Below, one piece after another: positions 1-12,055 of a DNA stretch of 64,000 nt (the first letter of the stretch is position 1; every line of letters begins with the position of its first letter). A program made the translations under genes and the position numbers. Where the stretch lies: NCBI GenBank assembly GCA_016938675.1, contig JAFGUF010000012.1:62001-126000 (forward strand), in the 5' to 3' direction. Origin of the DNA: Clostridia bacterium. Its GTDB lineage: Bacteria > Bacillota > Clostridia > Christensenellales > UMGS416. The notes below the pieces were generated by a model. The model was given only the letters and a program-made list of their open reading frames with translations. It ran no database searches and was not told the DNA's origin.

Positions 1-1641
1 CTCCCATGGCACTAGGCAATTATGCTTGAAGTTTTTGTCATCGCGCTCTTCCGCGTATTCCCATCCATAGCGCAGCTTGCCCTGCATCCAGTCTTCATGT
101 TCCATTATTGCATACTGCTCCACTACATTAGCCGGCAGCTTATCCACCTCTTCGGCGTCATAGCCTGCAGACACCAGCGCATAGCCCAGCTTTCTTAGCT
201 TTTTGTCCATGTTCATAGCCTGCCGAAGATTGGAGTACCTTTCATCCGGCTTCAATTTATAGTAGTCCTCATCAACTTTTATATCTTCCTTCAGGAGCTT
301 TCTATTCTGAATATATTTGTTGTGTATCTCTATTGCGAGCAGCTCCATATTCTCAAGCAGCGGGCGTGGTACATCGATGTTTTTGCTTGCTTCAGCGAAT
401 ATTTCATCCAATGTGTCGCACTCAATTTTTAGCCCGTCGCTGAATACTTCATTAATGTTTAGTATTTCCTCGAAAAGCTGCTTTTTCTCATTTATAAACT
501 TCTCCGGGAATATGCCTCTTGCGGCTAAATATGTTATGGTAAGAGACTTATCATCAATGCTTATATTCGCGCTGCACGCCTGGGTTTTGTACTTCTCTAT
601 TATTCCGTAGCCTGCCCTGTTCCATTCCTGCAGCTCATCGCATAGCATCAGCAGATAGGCTATCGGGTATTCTTCTGCATTTAATGGCCTGTGGGTAAAA
701 TCCTTCTCTATTACATTGCGGTAATAGTTATGCAGCAAAATTGCGCCTGCGCTGTCTACAATAGCATTGTAGAATCTCGCCGGGGCTCTGCCCGTCACCT
801 GAGTTAAGTACCCATACCATTTAAGCACAATTATTGCGCTGTAGAAGCCATGGTCTATAAATGCACCCTTTGCCATAACCTCCGTGAAGTTATCCAGCTT
901 ATTTTTTATATCATCAATTGGTATATTAAGAGCAAGATGAATCTTCTGTGCCAGCAAGTCTATTGGCTGCAACAGGTCTATATACACGCTGCTTTCATTT
1001 TTCTCATACTGCTCTTTTATGAATTCCTTTTTAGGCAGCACTTCGGCTATTGAATTAAGCCTGCGGAAGTTTTCAAATTCCAAATGCGCCTTTATTTGTC
1101 CATTTTCTTCATCATGATCGGCATCCGTTGCGAACTTTAGAAAATTAAGCACCTGCTTTCCTATTATCTCAATGGGGTAACCCACATCGTGGAAAAGAGA
1201 CGCAAGCCCCCAGCGAAAGAAAAACTCCTCATGTTTTGTTTTGTAGTTTTCAGAGTATTTTTCTTCATCGAGAGTAACTTTGGTGAATATATCCCTGTAG
1301 TTTTTGTTCTGTATGTATATGCATATGCCAAGGATAAACACATTGACTGAATGAATATAGTGGTCTCTTTGTTTTTCTATCAATGTGGCTGCCTTCTCCT
1401 CATATGCGCTCAATACATCCAACAAATCCATGAATGGGTTATTCGAGCCTTCCAGCACTATGCGGTAAGTTCCGAAAAAGAGCTTGTATACATCAAAAGC
1501 TGTGTCTTTTCTCTCATCATCTAGGAATTCCTTTATAGACTGTTCCAAAGCATCTTTCAGTATGTTTCTTGAGTCGTCCGCTGATATTTCCAGCTCTCTA
1601 AAAAAATTGCTGATGTAGGTTTTTATGATATTTTCTTTCAT
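1..1641 (-). CDS. HD-domain protein with C-terminal RyR-like domain (C-terminus truncated by window edge)
   Basis: Not in the ORF track because its stop lies outside the window. Manual translation from ATG at 1641 is open to base 1. Starts MKENIIKTYISNFFRELEIS; has HSVNVFILG...WGLASLFHDVGYPIE...DHGFYSAIIVLK...LLMLCDELQEWNR (HD-like); ends EHEDWMQGKLRYGWEYAEERDDKNFKHNCLVPWE (RyR-like). Confidence 0.75.
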   Translation of the reverse strand, partial: MKENIIKTYISNFFRELEISADDSRNILKDALEQSIKEFLDDERKDTAFDVYKLFFGTYRIVLEGSNNPFMDLLDVLSAYEEKAATLIEKQRDHYIHSVNVFILGICIYIQNKNYRDIFTKVTLDEEKYSENYKTKHEEFFFRWGLASLFHDVGYPIEIIGKQVLNFLKFATDADHDEENGQIKAHLEFENFRRLNSIAEVLPKKEFIKEQYEKNESSVYIDLLQPIDLLAQKIHLALNIPIDDIKNKLDNFTEVMAKGAFIDHGFYSAIIVLKWYGYLTQVTGRAPARFYNAIVDSAGAILLHNYYRNVIEKDFTHRPLNAEEYPIAYLLMLCDELQEWNRAGYGIIEKYKTQACSANISIDDKSLTITYLAARGIFPEKFINEKKQLFEEILNINEVFSDGLKIECDTLDEIFAEASKNIDVPRPLLENMELLAIEIHNKYIQNRKLLKEDIKVDEDYYKLKPDERYSNLRQAMNMDKKLRKLGYALVSAGYDAEEVDKLPANVVEQYAIMEHEDWMQGKLRYGWEYAEERDDKNFKHNCLVPWE

Positions 1642-1722
1642 ATTTAGCTCTCCGTTCTTCTTGTCGCAGTGTGCGCTCTGTTAATATTATACACTGTATG
1701 CCAGCATAAAGCACATGCCGGC

Positions 1723-3345
1723 CTAATTATATTCAATCTCAAATGCAGCTCCTTCCAGCTGCTCTTCTGCTTCGCCGCGCATTGACTCGTCCATATACGC
1801 TTTTTTAAGGTTTGGAAGATTCAGCAACGGCTTAAGGTTTCCGTCTGCAGCGTCAGACAGAGTAATATATTCAAGATAGTTCAGTTCTTCAATTCCGCTG
1901 TAGCTTTTTATCGGCGTCTCTCGGATATCAAGATCATTTAGATTCTGCAGCCCCGCAAAAGCATCCATTGACGTAATCCATGTTTTGCCGACATCCAGGC
2001 TTCTGAGCATCGGGCACGTGGAAAGCGACGACACATCGGAAACCTTAGTGTCAAACAGGCTCAATGTTTTAAGCCTCTGCAGATTAGCAAGGGGTGATAT
2101 ATCTTCAATTGGATTATGCCGCAAATCAACAATCTCAAGCGATTCAAGGCCCGCAAGCGAAGATATGCCGGTAATATCCTGCAGAACTATGCGCACAATA
2201 AGCAAATTTTTCATTTTTTTCAGGTCATCAAGCGACTCGATGCCGCCGTTTTTTAGATATCCGTCATTCAGCGCCATATGTGTGCCCAGCTCATCGAACG
2301 ACGGGGAGTCCTCGGCTATGTGAGCGCCGTAAATATATATCTCCGTAATATTCAGCAGTTCAGTCTCTGATATTGGCTCGCCTTCTGCTTTATCAAGCTG
2401 AAGCCTGACCGCCTGCTCAATTAGCGGCTCAGAAAACCTGACATTATCCGGCGATGCAAAAGGCTCAATATCGGTATACCTGCCAAGCGCAAATCCTGTG
2501 CAGAGAAACACAATGCATGCAGAGGCGGCTATTATCAGCCTGAGCCCCCCGTTCCTGCTTCGCCTGGCTGCGAGCAATGCCTTCTTTGCCTTTTCCACAG
2601 TGGCGTAGCGCTTGTCCGGTGCGAATTCGCAGCACCTTTTGATCACCTTTCTGATGCGCTGGCTGCCTATTTTCTCCAGAATTTTCTTTACTTCATATTC
2701 TCCGGTTATCAGCCAGCCCAAAAGCACCCCCATGGAAAATATGTCTGTCCTCTTGTCGGTCTGTGCAAATCCATACTGCTCCGGTGCAGCAAAATACTTT
2801 GTGCCATAGCACACTGTGTCCTCGCCGGCCTCACTGTTGTATACCCGTGATATGCCGAAGTCAATCAGCTTCAGTTCGCCTTTTTTGTCTATTAGAATAT
2901 TCTGCGGCTTTATGTCGCGATGGATAACCGGCGGCTTCCGGCTGTGCAGATATATGAGTATGTCGCAAAGCATAATCCCAAATTCTGCAGCCTTTTGCTC
3001 ATCAACAGTGTTTTTCTTTATGTATTCATCCAGCGGCGTGCCGTCAATATATTCCCGCACAACGCAAAGCATCTCGCCGTTTTCATATGAGCCTTCAAAT
3101 CGCGGCAATCCGTGATGGCTAAGATTTTTCAAAATGTCCGCTTCCGTATAATCAGAAAGCAAAGATTTATCAGTGTAGCACTTGGCGACCAAAAGCCTGC
3201 CCTCGCTTTTTTCCTTGATAAGCAGAGTCATGCTGTCCGCGCTGGATGATAAGCACTCAAGTGTTTCGTATTTGTCTATAAACTCGTCGGGGTATTTATT
3301 GCAGCCGCTGCCTTCAATTATGCTTTCAATGTAGGCATCATCCAT
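1723..3345 (-). CDS. Membrane Ser/Thr protein kinase with C-terminal leucine-rich repeats
   Basis: Kinase motifs HRDIKPQNILID, DFGISR, APEQYG; one TM (LIIAASACIVFLCTGFALG); then SDS22/internalin-like LRRs (LQRLKTLSLFDTKVSDVSSLSTCPMLRSLDV). Confidence 0.9.
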   Translation of the reverse strand: MDDAYIESIIEGSGCNKYPDEFIDKYETLECLSSSADSMTLLIKEKSEGRLLVAKCYTDKSLLSDYTEADILKNLSHHGLPRFEGSYENGEMLCVVREYIDGTPLDEYIKKNTVDEQKAAEFGIMLCDILIYLHSRKPPVIHRDIKPQNILIDKKGELKLIDFGISRVYNSEAGEDTVCYGTKYFAAPEQYGFAQTDKRTDIFSMGVLLGWLITGEYEVKKILEKIGSQRIRKVIKRCCEFAPDKRYATVEKAKKALLAARRSRNGGLRLIIAASACIVFLCTGFALGRYTDIEPFASPDNVRFSEPLIEQAVRLQLDKAEGEPISETELLNITEIYIYGAHIAEDSPSFDELGTHMALNDGYLKNGGIESLDDLKKMKNLLIVRIVLQDITGISSLAGLESLEIVDLRHNPIEDISPLANLQRLKTLSLFDTKVSDVSSLSTCPMLRSLDVGKTWITSMDAFAGLQNLNDLDIRETPIKSYSGIEELNYLEYITLSDAADGNLKPLLNLPNLKKAYMDESMRGEAEEQLEGAAFEIEYN

Positions 3346-3802
3346 TGTGTGTTTCCTCTCTGTCCAGAGGCGTCAGATTCAGCATTGAAAGTATCTCCTG
3401 CGCTTCGTCAAAGCTTTTCTTGTCATGTATGCATCGGAGTATTGCAGCGTCCCTCAGTATTCTAGGATAAAGCGGGCTCATCTGAGCAATTTTCAGCATA
3501 TCCTGTGTTGTTTCCTCGTCCATCTGCATCCCAAATGCCAGCTGAATCAGCTTGTCCCGGGAGGGCTTTCGCGTTCCGTTTAGTATCTGATGCAGGTAGT
3601 TCCTGTCAATATTGCACCGCAAAACGATCTCCGCCACTGAAATGCCGCTGCTTTTCCTCTGCGCACAAAGAAACTCATTCAGCCTTACAGGCCGAAGGTC
3701 GTCGGTGTTTTCTTTAATGAATGTTTCAATATCGGGGGCCATAAAAAGCCTGCGCCGCAGCGTCTCTGTAGCATGCAGTTTAATAAGTTCATCATACGGC
3801 AT
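3338..3802 (-). CDS. XRE-type HTH protein, overlaps the kinase start by 8 nt
   Basis: ISVAEIVLRCNIDRNYLHQILNGTRKPSRDKLIQLAFGMQM; paralogous to 3971..4402. Confidence 0.75.
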   Translation of the reverse strand: MPYDELIKLHATETLRRRLFMAPDIETFIKENTDDLRPVRLNEFLCAQRKSSGISVAEIVLRCNIDRNYLHQILNGTRKPSRDKLIQLAFGMQMDEETTQDMLKIAQMSPLYPRILRDAAILRCIHDKKSFDEAQEILSMLNLTPLDREETHNG

Positions 3803-3970
3803 TTTTTGTCTCTCCTCACAGATGCTATATTAATATTATAGTCTTTGCCGCACGATGTATCAAGCATTGTTTGCCATAGTTTCAAACATATATTCATTAT
3901 TACAGCAAGCAGCCTGTAAAAAATACAGGCTGCTGATCTTTTTTCTTACGGCACTTTCATAGAGCCTATT

Positions 3971-4402
3971 TTATTCTGCCTGCGTGCAAAGAGCCTCCAT
4001 GCCGAATTCTGCCAGCAGCTCACCAGTTTCGTTAAGGCCTAATCCGTGCTCTATTGAATACAGTATGACTGCGTCCCTTTTAATCCTCGGGTAGAGCATG
4101 CTTTTGCGTGCTGCTCTCAATAGCTCCTGAGTCTTTTCAAGGTCCAGCCCGAAGCCGAATGCCAGCTGAATCACCTTGTCCCTCGCCGGCCTCCTCGTCC
4201 CGTTGAATATCTGATGCCCGTATGTTCTTGTTATCCCTGAGCGCCTGATGACATGCTCTCGCTTCATTTCAAGTTCGCGGCATAGATTATTTAAATACTC
4301 CGGAAAAGGAGGCAGCGACGCCTCATCCAGCATTTTTTTATCCAGTCTGCCGGATATCAGTTCCTTTAATAAATCATCGGTCTTCAGCTCTCGTTTGCTC
4401 AT
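3971..4402 (-). CDS. XRE-type HTH protein, paralog of 3338..3802
   Basis: HVIRRSGITRTYGHQIFNGTRRPARDKVIQLAFGFGLDLEKTQELL; ATG at 4402 preceded by a GGGGGAAA RBS (track ORF begins at 4429). Confidence 0.75.
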   Translation of the reverse strand: MSKRELKTDDLLKELISGRLDKKMLDEASLPPFPEYLNNLCRELEMKREHVIRRSGITRTYGHQIFNGTRRPARDKVIQLAFGFGLDLEKTQELLRAARKSMLYPRIKRDAVILYSIEHGLGLNETGELLAEFGMEALCTQAE

Positions 4403-4445
4403 TTTCCCCCACCATATTTCCTTGCCCAATCGCCGTCTTTACCTA

Positions 4446-6068
4446 TCAATATTCACCCGCAGGCATTGCATAGAGTTCCTCAATACTCATTCCGAAGGTA
4501 TCATTAATGTATTTAATCATCAATTCTACCGGGTATATATATATGTCATCTATGCTTGGGTCATTGAACGCGTTTTTGAAGTATTGCTCCGATGTAATGC
4601 TGTTGTCGCTGCACCAGCCATCAATTGCCTCATGTGTATCATAATAGAATTCGTATTTTGCTCCGCCCCCGAAGTTGTCATCGCCGCCTACGAGGAACTT
4701 ATTTTCTCCGACGTAATACTTAACCACAATCCTGTAATCATCACTTATTGAGGTAAAGAAGCTGACGTCGCCGCCTTCTTCCCATTCTCCCCATTCTGGA
4801 TTGCGCACCTCCACATTAAAATACTTGCCGGCTTTTTTCTCGTAGTAATAAGCGTTGTCTTCCCTCTTCTCAGTAAATCCCCAGCCAGCCAGAGTCGATG
4901 TATCCGGCTCTACTACCTCATATGGCAGTGCATAAATGTCGTTAGCGTTCGTGCCGAAAAGCACTGCCAGCCTGTCATTGATAAACTTAATTGGAGCTTC
5001 TAATATATCCATTGTGCCCATTGCCTCCGGCAGCATCTCATTGATCAGGTTCTCTGCTTCCTGCTGCTCTCCGTATATAAATTCAGTATTTTTGCTATCT
5101 ATATAGTAATTATATCTCTGAACAAAAACACCGTCTTTTACAATAGAAACGACATATCTTTTTTCATTCGGATAGTAGCCCACCTCAAAACGGTTTTCAT
5201 TGCTGAAGTCCGGTATTACCATAACCGGGCAGTTTTCCTCCGGGCCAATATTCTGATAGCGCAGTATGACTACGTCTTCTTCCGTCTTATACCCGAAAAA
5301 GTCGTCTACCTGCCCAAATCCCATATCTTTCAGAGAAGAGTACACACTAAAATCAGCTTCTTCAAGATTAGGGTAAATATCCTTAAGCGGAGTGAAGTCC
5401 TCTATCGGGCATCCTGCCAGCTCCAGCTTTTTAAGGTTTGTAAGCCCTGCAAGGGGCGATACGTCACTTGCCCAGCAATCATTCAGTGATAAATCGTGCA
5501 GCCCGATAAGGCCGGAAAGCGGGCTCAAATCCTCTATTGTCGAATATCCTATAAAAAGAGTACCAAGGTTAGTCAGGTCCGCAAGCGGCGAATAGTCGCT
5601 TGCTTCACAGTTGAATATGCAAAGAAAGCCAAGCTGCGGCAGATTGGAAAGCGGCGAAATATCCTTAATATGGTTGCCGCCGATTGCAAGCCCTGTCAGC
5701 TTAGTAAGGCCTGAAAGCGGGCTTATATCTGTAATTCCATGAAACTGCACAGAAAGGTCTTTCAGATTCACAAAATATTTCAGCGCGCTGATATCCGTTA
5801 TCACTTCCTCCGGCGGCGGCCAGCTGTTATCCATACTGAGCTTTTCAACAGCGGCTGCTTCCTCTAGGGTTATGTCGCCTTCCGGTTTGCCCATTTCCTC
5901 CCTTATGCGCGCCTCCAAAATAGCATCATTGAAAATAACGATGTCTTCATTTTGCTCAGGCTCTGCCTGCTCTGTCGGCGTTGGCTCATCCTGCGCAGGC
6001 GTCTTGCCGCAGGCAGCCATGGATAAAACCATGATGAGCGCTAAAAAAACAATAACAACTCTTTTCAT
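4446..6068 (-). CDS. Leucine-rich-repeat lipoprotein
   Basis: Lipobox MKRVVIVFLALIMVLSMAACGKT; repeats such as LTGLAIGGNHIKDISPLSNLPQLGFL; GGAGGAG RBS before ATG 6068 (track ORF begins at 6167). Confidence 0.85.
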   Translation of the reverse strand: MKRVVIVFLALIMVLSMAACGKTPAQDEPTPTEQAEPEQNEDIVIFNDAILEARIREEMGKPEGDITLEEAAAVEKLSMDNSWPPPEEVITDISALKYFVNLKDLSVQFHGITDISPLSGLTKLTGLAIGGNHIKDISPLSNLPQLGFLCIFNCEASDYSPLADLTNLGTLFIGYSTIEDLSPLSGLIGLHDLSLNDCWASDVSPLAGLTNLKKLELAGCPIEDFTPLKDIYPNLEEADFSVYSSLKDMGFGQVDDFFGYKTEEDVVILRYQNIGPEENCPVMVIPDFSNENRFEVGYYPNEKRYVVSIVKDGVFVQRYNYYIDSKNTEFIYGEQQEAENLINEMLPEAMGTMDILEAPIKFINDRLAVLFGTNANDIYALPYEVVEPDTSTLAGWGFTEKREDNAYYYEKKAGKYFNVEVRNPEWGEWEEGGDVSFFTSISDDYRIVVKYYVGENKFLVGGDDNFGGGAKYEFYYDTHEAIDGWCSDNSITSEQYFKNAFNDPSIDDIYIYPVELMIKYINDTFGMSIEELYAMPAGEY

Positions 6069-8708: not shown

Positions 8709-9332
8709 TTAAATCATGATGTCAAAGTCCGCTTCCGTTGCCGCAGCCACGTCATCTAATGTTACGCCTTCTGAAAGCTCGGTTAATGTGAGCTTGCCTT
8801 CCAAAAATTTAAACACACATAGCTCCGTCACTATCATGTCCACAACGCCCACTGCAGTTAAAGGCAGTGTGCACTTTTTGAGTACCTTTGGCGCTCCCTT
8901 TGCTGTGTGCTGCATCGCTATAATAACACGCTTTGCTCCGGTTACTAGATCCATTGCCCCGCCCATGCCGGGAACCATTTTTCCGGGTATCATCCAGCTT
9001 GCGAGGCTGCCGGTTTCATCCACCTGCAGAGCGCCAAGCACAGTAACATCCACATGTCCGCCTCTTATAAGGGCGAATGAATATGCTGAGTCAAAATACA
9101 TTCCGCCGGGAACTATTGTTACGGGCTGCGCTCCTGCGTTTGTTATATCCCTGTCTTCCTGGCCCTCTTCCGGCTTGCAGCCCATGCCCAGCATGCCGTT
9201 TTCGGACTGGAAAGTTAAATCCGCTTCCAGATAATCAGCAACCATTGTAGGCAGCCCTATGCCGAGGTTCACCATATAGCCGTCTTTCAATTCCTTAGCC
9301 ACTCTTCTGGCTATCATTTCTTTAGCGTCCAT
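8709..9332 (-). CDS. atoA: Acetoacetate/butyrate-type CoA-transferase beta subunit
   Basis: CoA-transferase subunit B motif ([52 protein letters not shown]); RBS GGAGG before ATG 9332. Confidence 0.88.
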
Positions 9333-9333
9333 A

Positions 9334-9987
9334 TTATTTACCTCCCTCGACAATATAGTCAACCAGTGTTGCAGGCGTCATTACGAGGTGAGGGTCTATT
9401 TCTCCGACTTCCACTATTTCTTCCGCCTCCATTATCACGGTGTCTGCCGCCATTGCCATCAGTGGATTAAAGTTCCTTGTTGTCTTGCTGTGGAATGCAT
9501 TGCCGCTTTTATCTACTTTTGTTCCGAATATGATAGCGACATCCGCATGCAAAGGCATCTCCAGAAGGTAATCTTTGCCCTCAATTTCCAGCACCTGCTT
9601 GCCCTCTCCAACTATTGTGCCCACGCCTGTAGGTGTCAGCACTCCGCCGAGGCCTGCGCCTGCCGCGCGCACTCTTTCCGCCAATGTTCCCTGCGGCACC
9701 AGCTCTATCTCTGTTTCGCCGGCCATCAGCTGCCTGCCTGTTTCCTTATTTGTGCCTATGTGGCTGGTTATTATTTTCTTAAATTGCTTATTAACCACCA
9801 TTTTGCCTACGCCTACATCTTCCATAGCGGTGTCATTGCAGATCAGGGTAAGGTTGTCTGCACCGGCCTTTACCAGCGCGTCAATAATCCTGTGGGGCGA
9901 ACCTACGCCCAGAAAGCCTCCTACCATTATGGTATAGCCCGGCTTTACCAGCTTTACGCATTCCTCCATTGAGCAAATTTTGTTCAT
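9334..9987 (-). CDS. atoD: Acetoacetate/butyrate-type CoA-transferase alpha subunit
   Basis: [65 protein letters not shown]. Confidence 0.88.
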
Positions 9988-10004
9988 AGATTCTCCTCTC
10001 TTCC

Positions 10005-11261
10005 TTATGCTTTAACAGGGTATTTCTCCATCACATATTCCATGGCTTCATCTATACATTTCAAGGCATATTTCAGGTCATCATCTGTGTGCCTGTAGCA
10101 TATGTACCAGTGGTGATATGGCTGCACAAAAAGCCCTCTCCTTATTGTCTGTGTGTAGAATTCCCTTCTGCGCTCCTTGTAGTCTTCATCCACCTTGTCG
10201 AATGTTATAAACGGCATTGGCGGAATGCCCGAAACCGTAACAGGAGCGTTATGCCTTGCCTTTATATGATGCAGTTCCTTAAGGAATGCTTCTCCCTTTT
10301 CCCATATTTGCTCGATAACATTCTCTCTCTGCAGTATCTCTATGCACTTTAATGAAGCCGCCATCTCCAAGCTATTGGGGAAGAATGTTGAGCTGACGAA
10401 TACTTCGCTTTCCATCACTTTCATTATTTCCTTTTTGCCCACCAGCGCGCTTATGGGGTATCCGTTGGCCATGGCTTTGCCGAATGTCGCCAAGTCCGGC
10501 ACCACGCCGTATCTTTCGCCTGCCCCGCCCATCGCCGCGCGGAAGCCCGTACGTATTTCATCAAATACCAGTACTGCGCCGTACTCATCAGCCAGCTTCC
10601 TTACGCCCTGCAGGTAGCCTTCCGGCGGAGTAATAACGTCCTTAGCTGTTGGGTGCCCAACCGGTGTAATTATTATGCAGGCTGTTTCGCCCTTGTTTGC
10701 TTCCAGCTTTTCTTTCAGCTCGTTTAAGTCGCCGTATTTGAATTCTGTTGTAAATTTTGATATCTCTTCCGGCACGCCGCCTTTGTTTTCCACGCACCAA
10801 TCGTGCCATCCGTGGTAGCCGCAGCGCAGTATATGGTTTTTACCTGTGTAGCCTCTTGCCACGCGTATTGCCATCGTAGTTACGTCAGAACCGGTCTTTG
10901 CTATTACTGCCATCTCAGCGCAGGGGATAAGCTCAATCAACTTGTTTTCAAGGTCATTCTGCAGCTTCTGAACCAGCGAAAAGCAAAAGCCTTTTTTCAT
11001 CTGCTCAGCGGCCGCCTCGTTTATTTCATCCTCAACATAGCCCAGTATTATAGGCCCGTAGGAGCAGAGCATGTCTATGTAGTCGTTGCCGTCAACATCC
11101 ACTATGTGTCCGCCATATCCTCTTTCTATAAACACGGGGTACTCGCCCTCTATAAAATTATATGGCCTGCGTATGCCCAGCATTCCTCCCGGGGTTATCT
11201 CCACAGCCTCTTTCAGCAAGGCCATTGATTTAGTAAGGTTTAGTTTTTCTGCGCTCTTCAT
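10005..11261 (-). CDS. kat: Class III PLP aminotransferase, probable 3-aminobutyryl-CoA aminotransferase (Kat-like)
   Basis: Glutamate-1-semialdehyde-aminotransferase-like fold (KTGSDVTTMAIRVARGYTG, VFDEIRTGFR, FGKAMANGYPISALVG). Lies inside the lysine fermentation operon, with ATGA overlap to kamE. Substrate is inferred from context. Confidence 0.7.
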   Translation of the reverse strand: MKSAEKLNLTKSMALLKEAVEITPGGMLGIRRPYNFIEGEYPVFIERGYGGHIVDVDGNDYIDMLCSYGPIILGYVEDEINEAAAEQMKKGFCFSLVQKLQNDLENKLIELIPCAEMAVIAKTGSDVTTMAIRVARGYTGKNHILRCGYHGWHDWCVENKGGVPEEISKFTTEFKYGDLNELKEKLEANKGETACIIITPVGHPTAKDVITPPEGYLQGVRKLADEYGAVLVFDEIRTGFRAAMGGAGERYGVVPDLATFGKAMANGYPISALVGKKEIMKVMESEVFVSSTFFPNSLEMAASLKCIEILQRENVIEQIWEKGEAFLKELHHIKARHNAPVTVSGIPPMPFITFDKVDEDYKERRREFYTQTIRRGLFVQPYHHWYICYRHTDDDLKYALKCIDEAMEYVMEKYPVKA

Positions 11262-12055
11262 TTGCTCCTCCTTCGTGCACTCTTTCTTTTTGCCATTTCT
11301 TTTACTATATACGTCGCTACGTCATCTGCGAATTTGCCGCTGCCGAATCCAGCGTCGTAGCCCAGCTCCTTTGCCAGCCTGTGGGATATTCTCGCGCCGC
11401 CGCAGATTAATAGCACGTCTTCGCGGATGCCTTCTGCCTCCGCCATCTCAACTAGCTGGGTTAGGTTCTGTATATGTATGTCCTTCTGCGTCACAGTCTG
11501 CGATACCAACAGCACATCGGCTTTCTTCTCCAGGGCATACCTGATCATGTCAATGTTGGCTACCTGCGCGCCCATGTTGTGGGCTTCAATCATTTCGTAT
11601 CTTTCCAGCCCATAGTGGCCTGCGTAGCCCTTCATATTCATGATGGCGTCTATTCCCACGGTGTGGGCATCTGTCCCTGTAGATGCTCCTACGACTACTA
11701 TCTTCCTGCCGATGTCGCGCTTTATGCATTCATCTGTTTCCTTCATGGACATGGCTTTGCTCACGGCAGACGGCGCATCTATAGCAGTGTAGTCTATGCC
11801 TGCATCCACGGAGCCGTAAAGCACATAGAATGTAAAATCATCATCAAGCGGCTTTACGCTTGCTACTACTGTTTCTTTTAGCCCCATCTTAGCAGCCAGT
11901 GCCTTGGCTGCCTCAGTTGATTTTTCGCAGTTTTTTACAGGCAGCGTAAAGCTGAGCTGCACTCTGCCGTCATTCAATGTGTCTCCGTAGGGCTTAAGCT
12001 TCGTTAAGTCCAGTTTTTTATCGTAATTTTTTTTTGCTGTGGAATATCCGCTCAT
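11258..12055 (-). CDS. kamE: Lysine 5,6-aminomutase beta subunit (B12-binding)
   Basis: VVVGASTGTDAHTVGIDAIMN (DxHxxG cobalamin motif); N-terminal KLKPYGDTLNDGRVQLSFTLP. Confidence 0.93.
   Translation of the reverse strand: MSGYSTAKKNYDKKLDLTKLKPYGDTLNDGRVQLSFTLPVKNCEKSTEAAKALAAKMGLKETVVASVKPLDDDFTFYVLYGSVDAGIDYTAIDAPSAVSKAMSMKETDECIKRDIGRKIVVVGASTGTDAHTVGIDAIMNMKGYAGHYGLERYEMIEAHNMGAQVANIDMIRYALEKKADVLLVSQTVTQKDIHIQNLTQLVEMAEAEGIREDVLLICGGARISHRLAKELGYDAGFGSGKFADDVATYIVKEMAKRKSARRRSK

Follow-up and report, generated by a model that had tools for sequence, protein, structure and literature searches.

This report concerns a 64,000-nucleotide (nt) stretch of the genome of a Clostridia bacterium (GCA_016938675.1, contig JAFGUF010000012.1), hereafter the window, and the group of genes at its start. 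The window spans C23:62001-126000 in a 2.6-Mb genome of 45 contigs; in the labels used here, L-numbers denote loci, G-numbers genomes and C-numbers contigs of the window's own genome. Five minus-strand genes lie at the locus and encode a leucine-rich repeat (LRR) lipoprotein, two proteins of the XRE family (XRE2 and XRE1), a kinase with a transmembrane (TM) helix and LRRs, and an HD-RyR protein. In this order they are separated by 43 nt, 168 nt, an 8-nt overlap (XRE1/kinase) and 81 nt. An earlier note on this DNA had described the five genes with their spacings and had named the first an LRR lipoprotein, and both descriptions were reproduced, the last gap measuring 81 nt. Within the locus, XRE1 and the kinase are strongly supported as a dedicated two-gene module that occurs in Clostridia, Anaerolineae and Eggerthellaceae and is widespread among anaerobes and gut bacteria. 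The features, in window coordinates, are as follows.

4446-6068, minus strand: LRR lipoprotein, lipobox LSMAAC, with the lipobox Cys20 at 6009-6011
about 5313-5936, minus strand: LRRs of the lipoprotein, with a C-terminal domain beyond them
3971-4402, minus strand: XRE2, second XRE-family member, best match L117b (57%)
3908-3934, no strand assigned: 11-bp perfect hairpin in the 168-nt XRE2/XRE1 gap, with a T-run on the plus side only
3835-3863, minus strand: promoter-like TTGATA-17-TATAAT upstream of XRE1 (consensus scan, 11 of 12)
3338-3802, minus strand: XRE1, stand-alone helix-turn-helix (HTH) protein of 154 aa (HTH_3, 25.3 bits)
3767-3769, minus strand: codon of XRE1 Thr12, candidate phospho-acceptor by conservation
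1723-3345, minus strand: membrane Ser/Thr kinase with LRR ectodomain, 540 aa (Pkinase 124.6 bits, LRR_4 51.7 bits)
2563-3270, minus strand: cytoplasmic kinase domain, residues 26-261 (Pfam and AlphaFold model)
2482-2556, minus strand: single TM helix, residues 264-288 (model), preceded by an Arg-rich cytoplasmic side
1726-2451, minus strand: extracytoplasmic cap and LRR solenoid, residues 299-540 (Pfam, model)
1686-1722, minus strand: 8-bp hairpin directly past the kinase stop, then a TATAAT box, before HD-RyR (read from sequence)
1-1641, minus strand: HD-RyR, running past the window end; the complete gene (578 aa) is at L004:6906-8642

The 168-nt and 81-nt gaps hold hairpins and promoter-like boxes, so the five genes need not share a single transcript. 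Matches to the promoter-like consensus were equally frequent in shuffled sequence.

The kinase and its XRE partner

The kinase is of the Hanks type on sequence, with a Pkinase domain (PF00069) scoring well over the Pfam cut-off (124.6 against 31.7 bits) and the catalytic K, D, N and DFG in place. The residues K55, D144, N149 and D162 are all present; in the kinase alignment A6 the last three are invariant and K55 is nearly so, and the activation-loop residues D176/T177 are invariant across 27 kinases. In the AlphaFold model (mean predicted local distance difference test score 86) the kinase domain is followed by an Arg-rich stretch, one TM helix and, at the C-terminus, an LRR solenoid. This agrees with the topology proposed in the earlier note, with one TM helix and the LRRs opposite the kinase domain. 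The closest solved kinase structures include M. tuberculosis PknB. As in the PASTA-type Hanks kinases (PrkC/PknB/StkP), of which PknB is the nearest kinase fold among the bacterial structures listed, a cytoplasmic Hanks domain is joined through one TM helix to a C-terminal extracytoplasmic sensor. Unlike these enzymes, the present kinase has an LRR (or other) ectodomain, no adjacent PP2C gene and a dedicated XRE gene. Assignment to the PASTA kinases was rejected, the Stk1/PrkC model (NF033483) giving 103 bits against a cut-off of 450 and no PASTA domain being found. No PP2C gene was seen beside the kinase among the L004 genes. The claim that neither PASTA nor PP2C is present holds for the locus but not for the genome, which has a canonical PASTA kinase and PP2C pair elsewhere (L006:5759-8549). 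Identity with the defence kinases MAD6, PD-T4-6 and Stk2 was also rejected, as the matches are confined to the kinase domain; the MAD6 model scores 82 bits against a cut-off of 460. Plant LRR receptor kinases have LRRs outside, a single TM helix and a Ser/Thr kinase inside, and the present kinase shares these elements. It differs from them in its reversed domain order, internalin-like LRR type and bacterial HTH partner, and there was no sign of common descent with the plant architecture.

The XRE profile matched proteins in 93 of 391 class genomes at a threshold of E 1e-8. Some of these proteins stand alone and have about 140-155 aa; a second, weaker group of matches lies on larger proteins of about 330-370 aa. 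In a first survey, made of the neighbourhoods of 60 stand-alone XRE matches and the first five loci (67 XREs in all), a Hanks kinase lies within 400 bp of 55 XREs; these pairs are divergent in 42 cases, tandem with the XRE first in 12 and tandem with the kinase first in one. A second survey, a scan of named genomes that covered 80 loci and 81 XREs from Clostridia, Anaerolineae and Eggerthellaceae, found a kinase within 400 bp of 72 XREs, nearly all in tandem. Counting in the reverse direction in 40 genomes with 138 kinases and 54 XREs, 48 of the XREs lie within 2 kb of a kinase, against about 0.7% expected by chance. When the best-scoring kinase of each genome is set aside, 46 of the remaining 98 adjoin an XRE. 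The two proteins are also co-inherited: a mirror-tree comparison of 124 pairs, computed without a species-tree control, gave a Spearman rho of 0.80 against a permuted maximum of 0.16. XRE1 and its kinase have the features that define the module, namely a stand-alone XRE of 140-155 aa, an N-terminal Thr and a neighbouring Hanks kinase. The proposal that XRE and kinase form a unit is strongly upheld by the counts in both surveys, the reverse count and the mirror-tree.

The ectodomains of the paired kinases differ and consist of LRRs, of other or unassigned domains, or of three membrane helices only. At L005:7457-9461 the window's genome encodes a second XRE-kinase copy with another ectodomain. 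Across the family, the pair is retained while the ectodomain changes. Beside the divergent pairs (L058, L059, L089, L091, L099 and L101) there is often a gene for a VanZ-like membrane protein or for a small protein that is secreted or lipid-anchored. The lineages with the pair include cultured species (Acetanaerobacterium elongatum, Papillibacter cinnamivorans, Lutispora saccharofermentans and Pelolinea submarina); A. elongatum has both the XRE-kinase pair and an LRR lipoprotein. No description of an XRE-Hanks-kinase pair was found in the open literature, most subscription journals lying outside the coverage.

An XRE gene adjoining a Ser/Thr kinase gene is also what a HipBA-like toxin-antitoxin system would present, with the XRE as antitoxin and the kinase as growth-arresting toxin, and at L086 a kinase-like fragment persists beside an intact XRE. 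Such a system is a very improbable explanation of the pair: as a PF00069 enzyme anchored in the membrane, with a TM helix and a sensor ectodomain of LRRs, the kinase is not of the HipA type (the HipA model is absent among the matches shown), and many pairs are divergent instead of forming compact autoregulated operons.

The conserved threonine of the XRE

XRE1 matches HTH_3 with 25.3 bits against a Pfam cut-off of 23, and XRE2 matches HTH_31 with 21.7 bits, below the threshold of 27. The nearest solved folds to XRE1 are XRE repressors and controllers, the best Foldseek E being only 0.03. Position 12 of XRE1 is Thr in 142 of 144 distinct family XREs and ranks fourth in conservation among the 154 positions. 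It lies outside the HTH, in an N-terminal segment that otherwise conserves just two leucine-type positions. Thr8 of XRE2 aligns with it, and the profile match of the larger fused proteins begins past the N-terminal Thr segment. Because this Thr is near-invariant in the kinase-paired family, phosphorylation of the XRE is plausible, with T12 as the putative phospho-acceptor of the partner kinase. Strict Thr, as opposed to Ser, Asp or Asn, would speak more for phosphorylation by a kinase than for a simple helix cap, though either may hold. Larger proteins with an XRE-like domain are common in the class, and one is encoded in the same genome (L025). An XRE-like domain was also seen at the C-terminus of a macro-domain protein (L011:844-1812).

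The XRE could instead repress the kinase gene locally in the conventional way, with T12 as a structural helix cap and the kinase acting on other substrates. The divergent orientation of 42 of the 67 first-survey XREs is the classic repressor arrangement, the core of the fold is similar to that of XRE repressors and controllers, and T12 is in a predicted helix. However, about 80 further pairs are tandem and have no shared intergenic region. Among eight aligned divergent XRE-kinase intergenic regions, no palindrome or operator stood out beyond overlapping promoter boxes. In addition, the HTH positions Y69, G76, P80, R82 and D83 are conserved across XRE paralogues, unlike operator-specific recognition helices, a hint that the proteins may all bind the same partner instead of a range of operators. 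The strict preference for Thr is also odd for a helix cap. Overall, a conventional repressor appears somewhat unlikely.

The LRR lipoprotein, XRE2 and HD-RyR in relatives

Full-length orthologues of the lipoprotein were found at three loci (L117, L118 and L183). Christensenella sp. UBA7703 (L117) has the lipoprotein, both XREs and the kinase in another order, XRE1-kinase-lipoprotein-XRE2, with identities to the window genes of 54% for the lipoprotein LRR region, 50% for the kinase ectodomain and 57% for XRE2. L118 has the order XRE1-kinase-lipoprotein, and L183 has lipoprotein-XRE2. Shorter LRR lipoproteins adjoin the XRE-kinase pair in L123 and L130. There is moderate support that the lipoprotein and XRE2 form a second unit, which accompanies the pair in a minority of relatives. 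Their inclusion in the module, as proposed earlier, is supported in that minority.

The LRRs of the lipoprotein and of the kinase match internalin LRR models, and the lipoprotein matches solved internalins of Listeria with the cap included. In contrast to the internalins, the LRRs here are lipid-anchored or fused to a kinase, and their scores do not come close to the NCBIfam cut-offs of the named internalins. The earlier note had argued from the similarity of the cap preceding the LRRs that lipoprotein and kinase form a sensing pair. This argument does not stand, as the cap is generic: it also occurs in two TIR-TM-LRR proteins encoded by this genome, against which the lipoprotein LRRs score 76 and 67 bits, compared with 62-67 bits against the kinase. 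The two TIR-TM-LRR proteins (L213:1129-2529 on C28 and L214:214-2778 on C15) consist of an N-terminal TIR domain, a hydrophobic segment and C-terminal LRRs with the kinase-like cap, an inverted Toll-like layout. No paper on bacterial TIR-TM-LRR receptors was found in the open literature, with the same limit on coverage as above.

The complete HD-RyR protein (578 aa) has a RyR domain (PF02026) of 57 bits against a Pfam cut-off of 27.4, and its HD part rests on H...HD...D motifs that are conserved in homologues. The RyR domain contains His, Trp (+3), His (+25) and Asp (+42), which is the spacing of H75, W78, H100 and D117 in phage RyDEP. In RyDEP these residues bind and cleave 2'/3' cyclic ADP-ribose (2'/3'cADPR; preprint, PMC13232231). 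The likeness to RyDEP and the RyR R12-domain proteins (PMC13232231), and to the putative bacterial ryanodine receptors (PDB 3nrt, 6uag), consists of a RyR domain with the same residue spacing. Unlike RyDEP and the R12 proteins, the present protein is HD-fused and encoded by a bacterium, and its family is found beside SLOG-SLATT or TIR genes.

The HD-RyR family is rare, at about 1% of genomes (5 of 391 in the class and 4 of 399 in the phylum). Six other loci place it next to or near XRE-kinase-LRR genes: in four rumen loci that resemble one another (L153, L164, L176 and L166) it directly follows the kinase, in L161 it comes shortly after it, and in L179 it lies at a greater distance downstream. 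No homologue was found in the other loci of the class-wide first survey, the neighbouring cases coming from the named-genome scan. A full-length kinase-LRR was present in three genomes of the class sample (the window's own, G312 and G381), and each of them encodes HD-RyR, compared with 2 of the 378 others (p 1e-6, or 8e-5 when the own genome is removed and 0.008 when the shared family counts once). Both genes are also present in G727 and G807, where they lie either some 88 kb apart or on separate contigs. In G312, G381, G727 and G807 HD-RyR is away from the kinase and beside a TIR or TIR-LRR gene, and elsewhere it mostly pairs with TIR proteins. No XRE was found in two further HD-RyR carriers, G244 and G764.

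The earlier note had taken the five genes as one co-evolved module with HD-RyR as its output, to be checked by whether they recur together. The XRE-kinase pair does recur widely, but the five-gene set is reordered or split, and a fixed five-gene operon is ruled out by such relatives. The six adjacent loci and the genome-level co-occurrence with kinase-LRR speak for HD-RyR as the output; its separate position, usually with TIR, in the four genomes named above speaks against it, as do its presence where no XRE was found, the hairpin and TATAAT box in the 81-nt gap, and the full-length lipoprotein orthologues, which phmmer and cluster searches placed outside HD-RyR-bearing loci. A single co-evolved module is judged unlikely. 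Because HD-RyR occurs in TIR and SLOG-SLATT neighbourhoods and has RyDEP-like cADPR residues, we read it as a putative part of a separate ADP-ribose-type signalling system, a recurrent neighbour that repeatedly adjoins or co-occurs with LRR-type kinases.

In the window's genome, HD-RyR faces a SLOG-SLATT gene with weak Pfam matches (L004:5191-6867). The region just outside the window (L004:4198-6867) has this gene convergent with HD-RyR and adjacent to another gene, which has a weak match of proteasome type (T1). The arrangement resembles Thoeris (TIR with a SLOG effector) in that HD-RyR usually adjoins TIR elsewhere and here faces SLOG-SLATT, but this neighbourhood has neither a TIR gene nor ThsA. 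Membership in Thoeris was rejected, as the TIR genes of the genome lie on contigs C15, C28 and C30 only. In other genomes, HD-RyR is directly followed by a TIR-domain gene at L196:6828-9534, L197:7663-10341, L207:5477-9102 and L208:8019-11647, with LRRs also present in L197 and L207. HD-RyR and TIR(-LRR) are a candidate for an undescribed nucleotide-signalling pair. At L164:13870-15030, in a rumen genome, a TIR-TM-LRR gene is clustered with XRE, kinase-TM-LRR and HD-RyR genes.

These neighbours also raise an anti-phage defence unit, in which the LRRs would sense envelope damage or phage adsorption and relay it to HD-RyR, SLOG-SLATT and TIR effectors. Conflict-type genes are present in several loci (TIR in L164 and, downstream of HD-RyR, in L179; SLOG-SLATT in L004; a DUF4062 protein downstream of HD-RyR in L206), and the RyR-domain residues match those of RyDEP (PMC13232231). 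However, the PADLOC matches of the kinase span essentially the kinase domain only, HD-RyR has no PADLOC match, and, as far as the recurrent gene clusters go, most XRE-kinase pairs lack a defence-type neighbour. A defence unit is therefore considered improbable. It is still more doubtful that the genes form a bacterial innate-immune-like receptor, in which kinase-TM-LRR, LRR lipoprotein and TIR-TM-LRR would sense envelope attack, a phosphorylated XRE adaptor would control an ADP-ribose-type RyR/SLOG system, and the HD-RyR and SLOG-SLATT domains would read or clear the nucleotide signal.

Elsewhere in the window, positions 8709-12055 probably hold a gene cluster for amino-acid fermentation, with genes resembling those for an aminotransferase, for subunits of a CoA transferase and for one subunit of an aminomutase.

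Proposed mechanism and significance

The preferred explanation is a receptor kinase with a T12-bearing XRE partner, an accessory lipoprotein and XRE2, and HD-RyR from a separate system; as a whole it is given a probability of about 0.55. The outer LRR ectodomain would sense a surface or envelope ligand, and the cytoplasmic Hanks domain would then phosphorylate the partner XRE at T12. Phosphorylation would switch binding, to DNA or protein, by the HTH core of the XRE. The LRR lipoprotein and XRE2 may serve as accessory sensor and regulator that join the pair in some lineages, and HD-RyR may belong to an ADP-ribose-type nucleotide system that settles beside LRR-type modules. The genes, their pairing and co-inheritance, the conservation of the Thr and the HD-RyR neighbourhoods were observed, and the topology was predicted; what the kinase does to the XRE and at which residue, which ligand is sensed, which way the signal runs and what it controls are inferred. 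On this best-supported view the module would act as a phospho-relay with a single substrate; it belongs neither to the PASTA kinases nor to the HipBA pairs or the catalogued defence kinases.

Several points weigh against this explanation. The P-loop of the kinase is degenerate, with SSSADS where GxGxxG is expected. In the XRE1 model a helix covers residues 3-21, with low confidence in 1-10, and T12 lies inside it and may merely cap a helix. Most of the orphan XREs listed in the first survey retain the Thr with no neighbouring kinase. The adjacency of HD-RyR comes largely from one rumen clade, and the mirror-tree correlation, as stated, had no species-tree control.

To our knowledge, substrate and signal are not known for most Hanks kinases outside the PASTA type. 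A near-constant XRE partner with one near-invariant Thr makes a directly testable kinase-substrate pair, cultured species included. If true, gut and anaerobic bacteria would have in this module a phospho-relay that offers an alternative to two-component systems. The pair of HD-RyR and TIR-LRR is a candidate system in its own right, and the recurring HD-RyR/TIR neighbourhood would tie outer-surface LRR sensing to immune signals of the cyclic-ADP-ribose type.

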